A stretch of DNA of 64,000 bases from Anaeromicropila populeti (lineage in GTDB: Bacteria > Bacillota > Clostridia > Lachnospirales > Lachnospiraceae). The translations under genes and the position numbers were made by a program. Of this stretch, positions 50,159 through 56,405 are shown piece after piece. The notes below the pieces were generated by a model that did no database searches, was not told where the DNA came from, and was given only the letters and a program-made list of their open reading frames with translations. Location: assembly GCF_900112775.1 (NCBI RefSeq), contig NZ_FOYZ01000007.1, forward strand, positions 111,445 to 175,444, written 5' to 3'. How positions within the stretch are numbered: the first letter of the stretch is position 1; the number at the start of each line of letters is the position of its first letter.

Positions 50159-51091
50159 TTAGTCATCCTTTCCAACTTCAGTAAGTGACTTAACTAAACC
50201 AACCATCCCCTGAATTTCAGAAGGAATAATAATTTTGGTTGCTTTTCCATCTGCTGCCTTTGCAAATGCCTCCAAAGCTTTTAATTCTATTACACCTTTG
50301 GCTGGATTAGCATCATTCAGATAACGGATACCCTCTGCTTTTGCCTGCTGAACCTTTAAAATCGCCTCAGCTTCACCCTCCGCCTCTCGAATCATGGCTT
50401 CTTTCTTTGCCTCTGCTCGAAGAATAGCTGCTTCTTTTTCTGCTTCTGCTTCCAAAATAGCGGATTGTTTCTTACCCTCTGCTACCAATACGGTAGACTT
50501 TTTCTCACCTTCTGCAATCAAAATAGATTCTCTTCGTTCTCTTTCTGCCTTCATCTGCTTCTCCATTGCATCTTGAATCGCAGCTGGTGGAATAATATTT
50601 TTAAGTTCAACCCTGTTCACTTTAATTCCCCATGGATCTGTTGCTGTATCAAGAGAAACTCTCATTTTTGTATTAATAATCTCTCTGGATGTTAATGTTT
50701 CATCTAACTCTAAGTCACCAATAATATTTCTTAAAGTAGTAGCTGTCAGATTCTCAATTGCCATAATAGGATTCTCTACCCCATAGGTATAAAGCTTTGG
50801 ATCCGTAATTTGAAAATAAATAACAGTATCTATTCTCATGGTTACATTATCCTTTGTAATAACTGGCTGCGGTGGAAAATCCACTACTTGCTCTTTCAAT
50901 AAAACCCTTTTAGATACCCGGTCTACAAAAGGCCATTTCCAGTGAATACCCACATCCCAAGTTGCCTGATATCCTCCTAATCGCTCTAGTATATACGCGT
51001 GTGCCTGTGGCACAATCTTAACACAGGATGTAATAAGAAGTAAAATAACTACTGCAATAATAATACCTGATACTAATGCTGCTCCTGGCAT
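50159..51091 (-). CDS. SPFH/band-7 (stomatin-like) membrane protein
   Basis: 310 residues: one N-terminal membrane helix (about 5-24), the SPFH domain (about 28-200, with IVPQAHAYILERLGGY and PQPVITKDNVTMRID), then an Ala/Glu-rich coiled coil (about 190-265, EAEKEAAILRAEAKKEA). Members form large rings in the membrane and act as scaffolds, often with an NfeD protein, as here. QmcA-like by length. Not a flotillin, which is longer. Confidence 0.9.
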   Translation of the reverse strand: MPGAALVSGIIIAVVILLLITSCVKIVPQAHAYILERLGGYQATWDVGIHWKWPFVDRVSKRVLLKEQVVDFPPQPVITKDNVTMRIDTVIYFQITDPKLYTYGVENPIMAIENLTATTLRNIIGDLELDETLTSREIINTKMRVSLDTATDPWGIKVNRVELKNIIPPAAIQDAMEKQMKAERERRESILIAEGEKKSTVLVAEGKKQSAILEAEAEKEAAILRAEAKKEAMIREAEGEAEAILKVQQAKAEGIRYLNDANPAKGVIELKALEAFAKAADGKATKIIIPSEIQGMVGLVKSLTEVGKDD

Positions 51092-51108
51092 ATTTTTTCC
51101 TCCTTTAT

Positions 51109-51537
51109 TTATTTTTTAACTTTTACAATTAATTTAACACCTTCTACTTTAACAACCTCAACCTTACTTCCAGTAGATATAACCTGATTTGTCTCAGAAC
51201 GTGCTGTCCATTCAAGCCCATTTATCATAGCGGCACCCTTCTCAGCAAAATTGTCTATATCCTCCGTCACCTTTGCATCCTGCCCTATCAGACTCATTAC
51301 ATTGGTTTTTGTCCTTTTTAAATTAAACTTTCGTGCTACATAAGGTCTTACTGTTAACAGAGAAGCAAGGGAAACAACTATAAACACCATTAGCTGTACA
51401 TAAATATTACCTCCCAAAAGAGTAACAACAACTGCAGCCAATGCTCCACAGGCAAACCACACTGTTGCCAGCCCAAGTGTTGCTATTTCAACTATAATAA
51501 AGACGGCTAGTGCAATCAGCCAAATATAAAGATACAT
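51109..51537 (-). CDS. NfeD-family membrane protein
   Basis: 142 residues: membrane helices in the first 75 residues and a C-terminal OB-fold domain (about 88-142, GQDAKVTEDI to VKVEGVKLIVKV). NfeD proteins accompany SPFH proteins and are thought to anchor or tune them. Spacing of 17 bases to the SPFH gene supports an operon. Short form, without the serine-protease domain of long NfeD. Confidence 0.9.
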   Translation of the reverse strand: MYLYIWLIALAVFIIVEIATLGLATVWFACGALAAVVVTLLGGNIYVQLMVFIVVSLASLLTVRPYVARKFNLKRTKTNVMSLIGQDAKVTEDIDNFAEKGAAMINGLEWTARSETNQVISTGSKVEVVKVEGVKLIVKVKK

Positions 51538-51604: not shown

Positions 51605-52264
51605 TTATTCATTTAATATTCTTACAAAAGCATGAAACAAAAAATTTTTTGTCATTTCATCTGTAGTATCTGCATATTTTTCTTTATTGAGCAAAAAATT
51701 AGAATAGCTTATTACAATATATAATACAGCAGAGTCACTTATGAATTTATTTACAGGTTTTTGAATTAACTTTTCTGCAATTCCTGCTTCCATTACATTA
51801 TCAATGATATCCTGATACGCTCCACACTCTAAAACCTGCCCTTCCAGCTCTATTTTAAATAATTTGCCAATCTCCTGGGGTTCCTTTTTTCGGTATCCGT
51901 TCTGATATGCCGCCTGAAACAGTACATATCTTTTTTCAAAGTTTTCCTTAATCCAGTTAAGTCCACAATCGATTTTATTGCGAAAAGATTCTCCATTTAT
52001 AATTACTTTACGTAATTTTTCCAGACCTACAATCAAATCATATGTCAGCGCTTTAATGATAAGATCCTCTTTCGTATCAAAATACTCATAAACCGTTCCT
52101 TTTCCTACTCCTGCGGCCTGGGCAATTTCTGCAACGGTAATACTTTTTATATCCTGTCTTTTATTACACACTTCAATTACACCGTCAAATATCATAAATA
52201 CTTTGGGAGGTAAATTTTGCTGCAAATTATACAGAGCATTTTCTATTTCACCTGATTTACTCAT
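51605..52264 (-). CDS. TetR-family repressor of the RND pump operon
   Basis: 219 residues. N-terminal helix-turn-helix ITVAEIAQAAGVGKGTVYEYF (about 41-61), then a helical ligand domain of no clear subtype. The ATG ending at 52264 is 6 bases after GGAGG, which itself lies inside the end of the RND gene, so the two genes overlap by 8 bases and are co-transcribed. The palindrome upstream of the pump gene is the likely operator, giving autoregulation. The ligand is probably a pump substrate. Confidence 0.88.
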   Translation of the reverse strand: MSKSGEIENALYNLQQNLPPKVFMIFDGVIEVCNKRQDIKSITVAEIAQAAGVGKGTVYEYFDTKEDLIIKALTYDLIVGLEKLRKVIINGESFRNKIDCGLNWIKENFEKRYVLFQAAYQNGYRKKEPQEIGKLFKIELEGQVLECGAYQDIIDNVMEAGIAEKLIQKPVNKFISDSAVLYIVISYSNFLLNKEKYADTTDEMTKNFLFHAFVRILNE

Positions 52265-55200
52265 CTTCATCCTCCAATAATACTAAATCCTGCTCACGAA
52301 GAACCTTCATCTCTTTTCTGTTTAAGATATCATATAGCACCGGAATTACAAACAATGTTGTTATTGTTCCATAAAGCAGCCCCCCTATTGTAACAATTGC
52401 AATAGGCTGCATCATGTCCGAGCCCATTCCTACACCCACAGCCATTGTAGAAAGACCTAGAATTGTAGTAAGCGCTGTCATTAGTACCGGACGCATTCGT
52501 GTTACACAAGCTTCCACAATAGCTTCTTTTTTTGTAATCCCCTCTTGTCTAAGCTGATTTGTATAATCTACTAACACAATACCATTGTTTACAATAATAC
52601 CAGAAAGCATTACGAAACCAATCATACCAATTACACTTATTTCATTTCCTGTCATCCATAAGCCCAGGAATCCGCCTGTAAATGCCAGTGGAATAGTAAA
52701 TAACACAATAAAAGGTGATCCTAAGGACTGGAATTGGGCAACCATTATTAAATAAATAAAAGCAACTGCCAGCAACAGCATTTTCCCCAGTTCTCCCAGG
52801 GAATCATTAATATTTTCGTTTTCACCATTGTACTCTATTTCATAGCCTGATGGCACTTTATAATCCTTAAATGCCTTTGTAACCTCTCTGGAAACCAGCC
52901 CCACATTATATCCTTCCGCTATTTCAGCAGAAACTGTAATATACCTCTGCTGGGAAGCCCTGTTAATTTCTGAAAATCCTACAGTATCCGTAATTTCTGC
53001 AATATCCTTTAGTTTTACCAGTTTCTTTTCTCCTTTAGCATCAGTTACTTCAAATTCATGGGTACGGATGTCGTCTCGAACCAATTCTTTTGATAAATCC
53101 GTATCTACAAGTACAGAATAGGAGTTTCCGTCAACACTCAAGGTCGTTGCTTCCGCACTATCTGCCAGCATTGTCTGGATTTCCATATATGCCTGTGCAA
53201 CTGTCAAACCTTTCAACATTGCCTTTTCTTTGTTAATCACGATTCTAAGTTCTGGCGCAGGCTCCTCTAATCCACTGCTGACATCTGCTGTTCCTTTAAT
53301 AGTAGCCAGCTTTGCCGCCACATCCTCTGCAATACTACGAAGTTCGTCTAGCTCCAGACCCTTAATCTGTATCTGTATGCCAGTACCACCTAAAACACTT
53401 AAGTCCATGGAAGAACCACTTACTGTCAATTCACAATCAAAAGCTGCACATTTTTCTTCAATTTCCTTTGCAATTTCCTGGCTGGTACGCTTTTTATTTT
53501 CCTTCAGAATCACATACATATCCACTGCATCTGTGGATGCATCGTTTACCGAAGATAGTCCTAAAGAGGAAGCCTGCCCCAATGAAAACATTGCCCCTAC
53601 TACATCCACTTCCTTTATCTTTCTGATTTCTTCAATAACCGCATCGGACATCTTAACGGTATCTTCTTTTTTACTACCTTCTGGCATCTGCATTGTTACT
53701 GTAATTTGCGTACTGTCCATATCTGGCATAAATGCAGTTCCATTACTCACTGCCCCAAAAATACTAATTATTAACAGTCCTATAATACCAACCAATACAA
53801 TCGGTTTCCATCTTAATGCAGTTCTCAGAAGCCTTTCATATCCTCCTACAAATAATTCAAAAAACTTGTGCTGTTTTTCTTTTGTACTCTTCAATAAGCT
53901 GGATGACATTGCAGGAACTAACGTTAATGCTACTATTAAGCTTGCTAATAGTGAATAGCCAATTGTTAATGCCATATCCGTAAACAATTCTCTTGTAATT
54001 CCTTTTACAAAAACTATAGGAAGGAATACACAAACCGTTGTCAACGTAGATGCAATAATGGCTCCTCCAACCTGGGCTGCCCCATTCACCGCCGCCTTGG
54101 CTGCGGAAATTCCTTTACTCCTTAAACGGTAAATATTTTCAATAACTACTACCGAGTTATCCACTAACATTCCCACCCCAACTGCAAGTCCTGATAGGGA
54201 AATAATATTTAATGTTACTCCTGAAAAATACATTAGTACAATGGCAAAAACCACACTAATTGGTATAGAGCAGGCAATGATAAAAGTCGGCTTTAAATCT
54301 CTTAAAAATAGAAGCAAAATAATAACAGCTAAGATACCTCCCATAATTAAATTATTTAAAACTGAATTTACTACTAAGTCAATATACATCCCCTGATCCA
54401 TTAAGTTATTTACATGAATATTTTCATTTTCATTCATTATATCTGTAAACTTTACATTAATTCTATTTGCCACTTCTGCTGTTGAATACGTCGTCTGCTT
54501 TTGCATAGAAAGAATGATACCATTATTATCATTGACTTTAGCATAAATATTTTCCAAATTATCTGACCAGAAAACATCTGCTACATCCTGCAACGTAACT
54601 GGTTCCATATCTTCTATATCTAAATCAAACAGTATCAGGTTTTTCATTTCCTCTTCATCTTCAATTTTATTTCCAACCCGTACCATATAATCGGTTCCAT
54701 CTTCTGTTACATATCCTGCTGGCATTGAAAAATTTTGCGCCTTCAAAATCTGCTGAATCATATCCGTAGTAATTTTGTCCTCTATTGTTGCCTGAGATAA
54801 TGCATCTTCCTTAGTATCATCAAATTGATCTAATTGATTCGTTAATTCCTTCTCCCCAGCTTTTAATTCACTTTCAGCTGAATTCAACTCTGAAGAAACC
54901 GTACTTTTTGTTTTTGCCAACTCTTTTTCTTTCTCATCAATTTGAGTCTTGCCCTCTTCTAATTGCTCCTTTCCAGCGCTCATCTGCTGTTTCGCAGAAG
55001 CCAATGCTGCTTTTCCCTCTGCAATTTTAACCTTTCCTGATGCAATGGCCGTCTTTCCTGTTGCAATTTCTTCTTTTTTTGTTGCAATTTCTTTAAGACC
55101 AGACTCCAGCTGTGCTTTTGACTCTTGCATTGTTGTCTGAGAAGCAAGGGCATTTTCCAACCCAGTGCTCACTTCTGCTAACTGGCTGTTTAAGGTAAGT

Positions 55201-56255
55201 AGTGCCGTTTCTTTTTCTTCTATCGTTAATTGTGTACTATTTTCTGTATCCTTAATTGTTTGTTCTAAATTTGATTTGGTTGTAGTTAATTGCTCAATTG
55301 TTTCTGTTAGTACTAATTCCTGTTCCTTAATCACATCTAAGGAATCATTCGCTTCCTTTTCATTTGCTAACAGCGTTTTTTCTCCTTCCAGCAAAGTTTT
55401 TTCCTGCTCATTTAACTCTTTTTCAGATGCAAGCAGCTCGTCTTCCTTTGCTTGTAATTCTTCTTCACTCTTAGCAAGCTCTATTTCCTTTTTTAATAAC
55501 TCCAGGCGGGCATCTGTTATTCCTTGTTCACCCTGTATCATTCCTTCTTCAAATTCTGCTTTTTTCTGATTCAGTTCTTGTTTTCCTTCTGAAATTTCCA
55601 CTTTAGCATCGTCCAGCTTATCTTTTCCGTCCTCTAACTGTTCTTCCACATGGTCTTTCAGTTTTTCATTAATACTATCAATTTTATCTTGATTAATCAC
55701 AACATTTAACTGCTTTTCATACATTCCCATTGGTGTCACACTTGCTACACCTGCCAATGCCTCTAGTTGAGGAATAATTTTATCCTCTGTGTACTGGGTC
55801 ACTTCCTCTGGTGTCATGTTTTCACCATCAATTGCCGTAACCATGACAGGCATCATATTGGGATTGATTTTAATAATCATAGGTGCTCCCACAGAATCAC
55901 TCCAGTAGCCTTCTATCAGATCCAGCTTTTCCCTGACATCCAGTGAAACCGAATCCATATTCGTTCCATCCGTAAACTCCAGCATTACCATAGACACGTT
56001 TTCGCTGGAGGTAGATGAAATTTCCTTGATATTGCTTACAGTAGCCATAGACTGCTCAATTGGCTTTGTCACTACTTCTTCAATTTCCTCAGGACTTGCA
56101 CCAATGTAGCTTGTCACCACCACTACATAAGGTAAATCAATGCTAGGAAGTAAATCTGTTGTCATTTCTGTAAACGATACAAATCCTAGAATTAGTATTA
56201 ATACAACAGTAACAACTACAGTATATGGCTTTTTTACACTAAACTTTGATAACAT
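52257..56255 (-). CDS. RND-family efflux transporter with a long coiled-coil insertion
   Basis: Proton-driven exporter. 1332 residues from the ATG ending at 56255 (AAGGAGGAG site); an upstream start would read through a repeat and operator. First helix 12-29; the AcrB-like PN1 domain follows; then about residues 195-485 are a heptad-like, Glu/Lys/Leu/Ala-rich coiled coil placed where AcrB has only the short link before QNxxxPAG (here QNFSMPAGYV at 507). Twelve membrane helices and motifs such as GMLVDNSVVVIENIYR follow. No membrane-fusion protein gene is near, and a Gram-positive cell has no outer channel; the insertion may do part of that work. Confidence 0.88.
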   Translation of the reverse strand: MLSKFSVKKPYTVVVTVVLILILGFVSFTEMTTDLLPSIDLPYVVVVTSYIGASPEEIEEVVTKPIEQSMATVSNIKEISSTSSENVSMVMLEFTDGTNMDSVSLDVREKLDLIEGYWSDSVGAPMIIKINPNMMPVMVTAIDGENMTPEEVTQYTEDKIIPQLEALAGVASVTPMGMYEKQLNVVINQDKIDSINEKLKDHVEEQLEDGKDKLDDAKVEISEGKQELNQKKAEFEEGMIQGEQGITDARLELLKKEIELAKSEEELQAKEDELLASEKELNEQEKTLLEGEKTLLANEKEANDSLDVIKEQELVLTETIEQLTTTKSNLEQTIKDTENSTQLTIEEKETALLTLNSQLAEVSTGLENALASQTTMQESKAQLESGLKEIATKKEEIATGKTAIASGKVKIAEGKAALASAKQQMSAGKEQLEEGKTQIDEKEKELAKTKSTVSSELNSAESELKAGEKELTNQLDQFDDTKEDALSQATIEDKITTDMIQQILKAQNFSMPAGYVTEDGTDYMVRVGNKIEDEEEMKNLILFDLDIEDMEPVTLQDVADVFWSDNLENIYAKVNDNNGIILSMQKQTTYSTAEVANRINVKFTDIMNENENIHVNNLMDQGMYIDLVVNSVLNNLIMGGILAVIILLLFLRDLKPTFIIACSIPISVVFAIVLMYFSGVTLNIISLSGLAVGVGMLVDNSVVVIENIYRLRSKGISAAKAAVNGAAQVGGAIIASTLTTVCVFLPIVFVKGITRELFTDMALTIGYSLLASLIVALTLVPAMSSSLLKSTKEKQHKFFELFVGGYERLLRTALRWKPIVLVGIIGLLIISIFGAVSNGTAFMPDMDSTQITVTMQMPEGSKKEDTVKMSDAVIEEIRKIKEVDVVGAMFSLGQASSLGLSSVNDASTDAVDMYVILKENKKRTSQEIAKEIEEKCAAFDCELTVSGSSMDLSVLGGTGIQIQIKGLELDELRSIAEDVAAKLATIKGTADVSSGLEEPAPELRIVINKEKAMLKGLTVAQAYMEIQTMLADSAEATTLSVDGNSYSVLVDTDLSKELVRDDIRTHEFEVTDAKGEKKLVKLKDIAEITDTVGFSEINRASQQRYITVSAEIAEGYNVGLVSREVTKAFKDYKVPSGYEIEYNGENENINDSLGELGKMLLLAVAFIYLIMVAQFQSLGSPFIVLFTIPLAFTGGFLGLWMTGNEISVIGMIGFVMLSGIIVNNGIVLVDYTNQLRQEGITKKEAIVEACVTRMRPVLMTALTTILGLSTMAVGVGMGSDMMQPIAIVTIGGLLYGTITTLFVIPVLYDILNRKEMKVLREQDLVLLEDEDE

Positions 56256-56276
56256 ATTTCTCCTCCTTATTATACA

Positions 56277-56292
56277 GACTGACCAGTCAGTC
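56277..56292. promoter_or_regulatory. probable TetR operator upstream of the RND gene
   Basis: GACTGAC-CA-GTCAGTC is a perfect 7-bp dyad with a 2-base centre, the size and style of TetR-family sites. It lies 22 bases before the pump start. A TATAAA (about 56301-56306, minus) inside the flanking repeat would put the operator just downstream of the start point; a closer TATAAT (56269-56274) overlaps the ribosome site and is unlikely to be used. Confidence 0.7.
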
Positions 56293-56307: not shown

Positions 56308-56405
56308 AAAGTGTGTGTTCCACATACTCCCGCGGTTCTAATCAACTATACGGAACACACACTTTGCCGCGCCTTTTGCTGTGGCTGTCTTTAGCCACAA
56401 TATTC
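56308..56405. repeat. interspersed palindromic repeat, copy A
   Basis: A 14-bp perfect inverted repeat, AAAGTGTGTGTTCC (56308-56321) and GGAACACACACTTT (56352-56365), spaced by 30 bases, then gccgcgcctt and a small hairpin GTGGCT/AGCCAC (56381-56398) followed by acaatattc. Copy B at 62482-62580 keeps the same 58-nt length and the same following hairpin. Confidence 0.85.

Follow-up and report, generated by a model that had tools for sequence, protein, structure and literature searches.

AcrB-type RND pumps are described, in the available part of PMC8277102, as active only together with an adaptor and an outer-membrane channel. The locus studied here raises the question of how a pump of this fold might work in a cell that appears to have a single membrane, and what the long heptad-rich segment does that an earlier note had placed in the first external domain of this Anaeromicropila populeti transporter. 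We analysed the pump gene and its surroundings within a stretch of 64,000 nucleotides, hereafter called the window, together with homologous loci from other genomes.

Results

The pump is encoded on the minus strand by an open reading frame of 1,332 aa (52257..56255), with its ATG at 56255, its stop at 52257 and no internal stop, and a ribosome-binding site, AGGAGGA, can be read just 5′ of the ATG on the same strand (56261..56267). The Pfam profile ACR_tran is matched almost completely in two stretches that flank aa ~193-494 (E 2.5e-215), scoring 718 bits compared to 35 bits for the MMPL profile, which is thus not the best family. The predicted pump body aligns to AcrB-type chains with Z up to 31.3 and an rmsd of 4.7 over 774 residues (best Foldseek E 2.5e-45), and the top entries from the fold library were AcrB-type chains only; these fold comparisons concern the pump body, not the insertion. 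The gene is thus an HAE-1-like RND transporter of AcrB fold; that it is an RND transporter with a long insertion had been stated in the earlier note, with coordinates right to within a few residues. No other AcrB-type RND gene was found in its genome, where two further matches are ORFs of ~700 aa at the cut-off; separately, in that genome (L004), an ORF for an MMPL-like transporter overlaps the end of a 489-aa ORF with no Pfam match. Asp-Asn occupies pump residues 699-700 in 159/159 rows of the insert-bearing clade described below and Val-Asn-Asn residues 1222-1224 in 150/159, with coil-less relatives mostly the same at both positions. The proton relay of AcrB, which we take to consist of two adjacent Asp and a Lys at the matching positions, differs from these residues, so coupling may differ from that of AcrB.

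The insertion was mapped by phmmer against the PDB chain of MdtB (9lyq), in which aa 4-192 of the pump aligned with MdtB 14-203 and aa 495-1314 with MdtB 208-1025. The alignment breaks off at MdtB 203 and picks up again at 208, so that about 300 residues stand where MdtB has about 4, in agreement with the earlier expectation that an AcrB-type pump has only a few residues at this site; the segment first placed at residues ~195-485 was measured at aa ~196-490 (54786..55670, minus strand), a shift of a few residues. These ~295 residues stand in for a short loop connecting a strand to a helix that aligns with the AcrB helix presumably reading ...DVITAIKAQN, within the AcrB DN subdomain, whose boundaries we take to be ~181-273. 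By this numbering and the domain description in the available text of PMC8277102, the insertion belongs to the DN docking/funnel subdomain and not to PN1. Accordingly, VINQDKID, read previously as the PN1 strand, turned out from the MdtB alignment and AlphaFold2 to be a strand plus a short helix of the DN subdomain.

Proline and cysteine are absent from the insert (aa 196-490), which has two aromatic residues and is rich in Glu (19%), Lys (13%) and Leu (13%). Its hydrophobic residues recur with periods of 7 (z = 9.6) and 3.5 (z = 4.4), and none of 500 shuffled sequences reached either value, which upholds the earlier description of a heptad region. One heptad position is 85% Leu/Ile/Val/Met/Phe, compared to 50% after shuffling and the same fitting, and the position three further on is 63% Gly/Ala/Ser/Thr; the means of 132 other long inserts are similar (0.78 and 0.51, respectively). 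A chance low-complexity match is ruled out by the heptad signal, which exceeds that of composition in the shuffles. Pfam found no barrel-sandwich/lipoyl domain in the pump protein, and a search of its own genome at E 0.01 returned no second similar coil.

An AlphaFold2 model of the window pump (aa 1-1200, single chain, 66 sequences, mean pLDDT 77.7, pTM 0.58) predicted an antiparallel hairpin emerging from the DN subdomain. In this model an ascending base helix (aa 189-222; 55590..55691) is followed by an ascending distal arm formed by one helix (aa 240-339; 55239..55538), with block pLDDT mostly 72-89 and a length of ~15 nm if straight, then by the tip (aa 340-344; 55224..55238), a descending distal arm with GKxx(I/L) heptads (aa 345-453; 54897..55223) and a descending base helix (aa 461-488; 54792..54875) that precedes the AcrB-like helix TTDMIQQILKAQN, all on the minus strand. 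Model confidence is low at aa 222-243 and 447-465, where the stalk may therefore be hinged or misfolded. Hairpin topology was also predicted for a shorter full-length homologue, L088 (57 sequences, pLDDT 79.2, pTM 0.70), with unbroken helices at 188-257 and 264-326 and one turn. Independently of any model, the 133 long inserts contain 425 prolines, 84% of which lie in the central 40% of their insert (0.84 compared to 0.40 at random, with a maximum of 0.46 in 200 trials), as expected of a hairpin with a central turn, although the 133 inserts are related and hence do not count as 133 independent cases; in the window protein the predicted tip corresponds to this mid-insert proline cluster. Sequence identity is 0.47 and 0.38 at the two bases of the insert and lowest at the tip (0.15-0.16). 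The heptads form one strong Leu seam faced by small residues (G/A/S/T), a pattern that fits a two-helix hairpin, and packing into a barrel would need further contacts. With a helix rise of 0.15 nm per residue, arms of ~150 residues each would reach ~20 nm if straight. Collectively, two structure models, heptads and proline clustering support a long antiparallel two-helix hairpin growing from the DN subdomain, in line with the coiled-coil hairpin first proposed, and neither a compact bundle nor disorder was predicted.

We then considered how widely the insertion is distributed. By hand count among the matches listed for 150 genomes of the same family, ~43, including the pump's own, have a core match in an ORF of more than 1,100 aa, and ~22 have coil-less RND genes of ~1,010-1,055 aa. 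When 391 genomes of the class and 398 of the phylum were searched, coil-bearing and nearly coil-less relatives appeared at equal identity (46-51%). The relatives with names belong for the most part to Lachnospiraceae, Oscillospiraceae and other Clostridia, and one record each is labelled Erysipelotrichaceae and Coriobacteriia. An assembly artefact or an oddity of one genome is ruled out by inserts at the same site in dozens of genomes. The many coil-less relatives likewise rule out a universal feature of Firmicute RND pumps, an outcome that the earlier note had named as fatal to its reading.

Insert length was measured as the distance between fixed anchors, at which 17 means no insert, and among the RND proteins mapped in this way it ranged from 17 to 664. 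The inserts themselves run from ~18 extra residues in basal lineages to ~650. The largest distance (664) was seen in a 1,679-aa member (L103:6001-11037) whose insert would span ~48 nm as a straight hairpin. In a tree of insert-free cores (176 rows), a single branch with support 100 separates all insert-bearing rows from the rest, and a 70-row IQ-TREE agrees (one insert clade, support 100). The 176 rows comprise 22 with no insert (counting L165, whose length is uncertain), 17 mini (35-76), 8 mid (98-168) and 129 long (195-664); mini inserts are basal, long coils sit within one clade, and several rows have shortened again. Exact lengths are common to many rows (247 in 9, 231 in 6, 230-231 in 10, and 280, 327 and 351 in 5 each); strict heptad multiples, judged by eye, did not stand out among the length steps. 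L083 and L042 are close relatives (path ~0.22) with anchor distances of 168 and 392, and their comparison indicates a recent shortening by 224 residues. As judged from these trees, the insertion marks one well-supported Bacillota clade with graded lengths that are often fixed within subclades.

The coil might be a low-complexity expansion that is tolerated but serves no particular function, as could be read from its more than 30-fold variation in length, the sequence drift of the distal arms and the renewed shortening in some subclades (L083 beside L042). Such an expansion, however, would hardly keep heptads throughout the inserts, exclude prolines from both arms or hold exact lengths across subclades (247 in 9 rows, 230-231 in 10), and we regard it as very improbable.

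The genes around the pumps differ with the presence of the insert. An HMM for HlyD-type adaptors was built from 16 adaptors of coil-less loci, nine of them verified by Pfam, and applied to 20 coil-less, 18 mini/mid and 80 named insert-bearing loci. An adaptor ORF lies directly upstream of the pump in 17/20 coil-less loci and in 5/5 further ones with short flanks (L190-L194), giving 22/25, a sample drawn from many more coil-less matches listed in the genome searches. An adaptor ORF was detected upstream in 0/18 mini/mid loci, of which ~2 have a short upstream region, and in 0/80 named loci, at least 10 of which are partial or have less than 1.5 kb upstream (total 0/98). The HMM also found no HlyD-type gene in the 64-kb window, consistent with the earlier remark that no adaptor gene is near. 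Fisher's exact test on a subset (17/20 vs 0/88) gave P = 4e-17, a value that is overstated given a single tree event; adaptor loss and insertion each occurred once on the tree, which gives their link a sample of one. The three adaptor-less coil-less exceptions (L201, L202 and L204, which are tree rows L150, L151 and L153) form the sister group of the insert clade and have neither adaptor nor coil, which shows that an adaptor-free pump is possible without a coil. One-step replacement of the adaptor by the coil is weakened as a scenario, since this sister group lost the adaptor without gaining a coil; the order that we infer from the sequences is adaptor loss, then a mini-insert, then the long coil.

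The adaptor HMM also matched some RND coils weakly (L006, L011, L025, L034, L075, L112 and L135, of which L075 and L112 are among the 80 named loci), with L006 best at E 2.2e-6 and the others at 1.5e-4 to 8.2e-4. These matches likely reflect shared coil composition rather than homology, and descent of the RND coil from an adaptor hairpin is conceivable from the sequences.

No match to OEP/TolC (PF02321) and no Omp85 protein was found in the pump's own genome, which is 97% complete, while control genomes were positive for both; a single-membrane cell is the simplest reading, as had been expected from the start. HlyD-type ORFs are encoded elsewhere in this genome, one of them beside an ABC ATPase, and such adaptors could act in trans on the pump. 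The hairpin might therefore be a docking arm for an unlinked partner, such as one of the genome's HlyD-type proteins or a wall or S-layer protein, and helical hairpins are indeed the means by which adaptors meet their partners. The ABC ATPase adjoining one HlyD-type ORF nevertheless suggests that this ORF serves another transporter, and conservation in the insert is lowest at the tip (0.15-0.16 vs 0.38-0.47 at the base), contrary to what a specific docking tip would show, which makes a docking arm an improbable explanation.

Immediately downstream of the pump, and overlapping its stop by 14 nt, is a gene for a TetR-family regulator (51605..52270, minus strand; PF00440, E 3.8e-10). Upstream of the pump lies a perfect palindrome, GACTGACCAGTCAGTC (56277..56292), which has no other match at up to 2 mismatches in the 64 kb (0.02 expected), and when up to 3 mismatches are allowed, 53/154 homologues have a similar site in the preceding 200 nt, compared to 0/154 shuffled regions; on this evidence the palindrome is a probable TetR operator. 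A 19-nt inverted repeat, 89% complementary with 20 nt between its arms (56308..56365), sits between the palindrome and the upstream gene and could be a second operator or a hairpin. TetR genes recur beside insert-bearing pumps (25/87 nearest neighbour ORFs scanned, from 148 candidates) and at mini/mid loci (9/40), both counts covering ORFs on the same strand only. By Pfam, neighbours in the window encode TetR, NfeD, SPFH, SpoU methylase, TrkA and TrkH proteins, the TetR gene being followed directly, on the same strand, by an NfeD-like gene and then an SPFH/band-7 gene (50159-51537). No MmpS gene adjoins the window pump, and none was seen among the commonest neighbour families of the homologues.

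Discussion

We consider it somewhat probable that the locus encodes an adaptor-independent, one-gene RND pump, repressed by TetR, whose exit stalk is part of the same polypeptide. The built-in tube or wall-spanning arm of the earlier note is supported in part, by the predicted hairpin and by the finding of neither an adaptor gene nearby nor an outer channel in the genome. The pump would be repressed by its own TetR neighbour and would form a trimer like AcrB, with three hairpins that stand next to each other over the funnel and together make up a stalk or tube. Substrates, presumably hydrophobic or amphiphilic compounds, would be collected by the funnel and travel along or inside this stalk to a point ~20 nm off the membrane, either past the Gram-positive periplasm or within the wall. 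In a diderm cell, adaptor and TolC would take this part.

A broader and distinctly more tentative idea is that a monoderm Clostridia lineage swapped the tripartite pump for a single protein, by loss of the adaptor and then gain of the DN stalk, whose length (for straight hairpins ~1 to 48 nm, with a cluster near 20 nm and fixed values in subclades) would be a ruler tuned to the thickness of the periplasm or wall, independently of the MmpL tubes, which grow from the opposite half of the protein. The median long insert (283) gives ~133 residues per arm, or ~20 nm. A review gives the periplasm as 22 nm in Bacillus subtilis and 16 nm in Staphylococcus aureus by cryosectioning, and adds that tomography disagrees with these values (PMC8141598, available text); the match with stalk length is suggestive only.

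The mycobacterial MmpL4, MmpL5 and MmpL10 (RND, HAE-2) offer the nearest architectural likeness, since they too carry a long antiparallel helical hairpin in an extracytoplasmic domain, 196 aa or ~13 nm in MmpL5, in an organism which, like ours, is without a TolC-type channel (available parts of PMC12501195, PMC12346298 and PMC12183618). In a solved trimer of the MmpL5 type, three hairpins of ~125 Å form a needle-like channel (PMC12346298), deletion of the MmpL5 coil abolishes efflux (PMC12501195), and the MmpL10 coil drives trimer formation (PMC12183618), as far as the accessible text of these sources goes. The MmpL hairpin, however, is located in PD2, the second extracytoplasmic loop (PMC12501195, in the part available), whereas that of the window pump (aa 189-488) is in the first loop (DN), before TM2, and the different sites argue for independent origin. 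The window pump further differs from MmpL proteins in being an AcrB-type docking-domain protein with a TetR neighbour, no adjacent MmpS, a Bacillota host and inserts of ~18-650 residues among its relatives. It is best read as convergent with the MmpL hairpin pumps, not as a member of that family.

The same precedents bear on whether the hairpins conduct at all. They could instead form a solid stalk, i.e. a trimer clamp, spacer or wall anchor that holds the trimer together or sets its distance from peptidoglycan while substrate exits at the funnel. A lone Leu seam faced by small residues would suit a closed two-helix rod of this kind, the MmpL10 coil drives oligomerisation (PMC12183618, available text), coil-less relatives without an adaptor exist, and with ~18-60 residues the mini inserts could not span anything. 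Lengths of up to ~650 residues, however, are more than a clamp requires, and the published account of the MmpL5-type precedent speaks of a channel (PMC12346298, in the part available). We hold this solid stalk to be rather unlikely, and continue to prefer the exit stalk described above.

The window pump shares fold and domain order with AcrB/MdtB/MexB-type HAE-1 pumps, its closest sequence family, but differs from them in the missing adaptor gene and outer-membrane factor, the ~300-residue DN insertion and the proton-relay pair Asp-Asn in place of Asp-Asp. SwrC/YerP of Bacillus subtilis is likewise an RND pump of a monoderm member of the Bacillota and exports the amphiphile surfactin, a kind of substrate similar to that proposed here; compared by size alone, at what we take to be ~1,065 aa, it would leave no room for a long coil. 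HlyD/AcrA-type adaptors (MFP) resemble the insert in extending a pump by a helical hairpin, whereas the insert is part of the transporter chain and, by Pfam, is without a barrel-sandwich/lipoyl domain. In the same bacterial family, FtsX/MacB-type ABC permeases of 1,122-1,225 aa (L196:781-4248, L197:397-4071, L198:633-4220 and L199:3-3368) have an unrelated transporter fold and long coil stretches of their own that match the RND insert weakly. This similarity is probably compositional, and carrying coils may be a general trait of exporters in such cells.

In the open-access literature, with subscription journals mostly outside the search, we found no account of RND pumps of the Bacillota that carry this insertion. 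New here is the finding that an adaptor gene stands upstream of coil-less relatives (22/25) and of none of the insert-bearing loci (0/98). The first reading also lacked two further points, namely the large clade of graded insert lengths that the insertion defines, and the solved precedent of the MmpL pumps. A large pump lineage common in gut Clostridia thus has neither adaptor nor outer channel and has a hairpin built in. Adaptor-dependent, adaptor-free and coil-bearing pumps form a natural series, which makes it testable how such a pump works in a single-membrane cell, whether its coils conduct substrate or act as a clamp, and whether thicker envelopes go with longer stalks.
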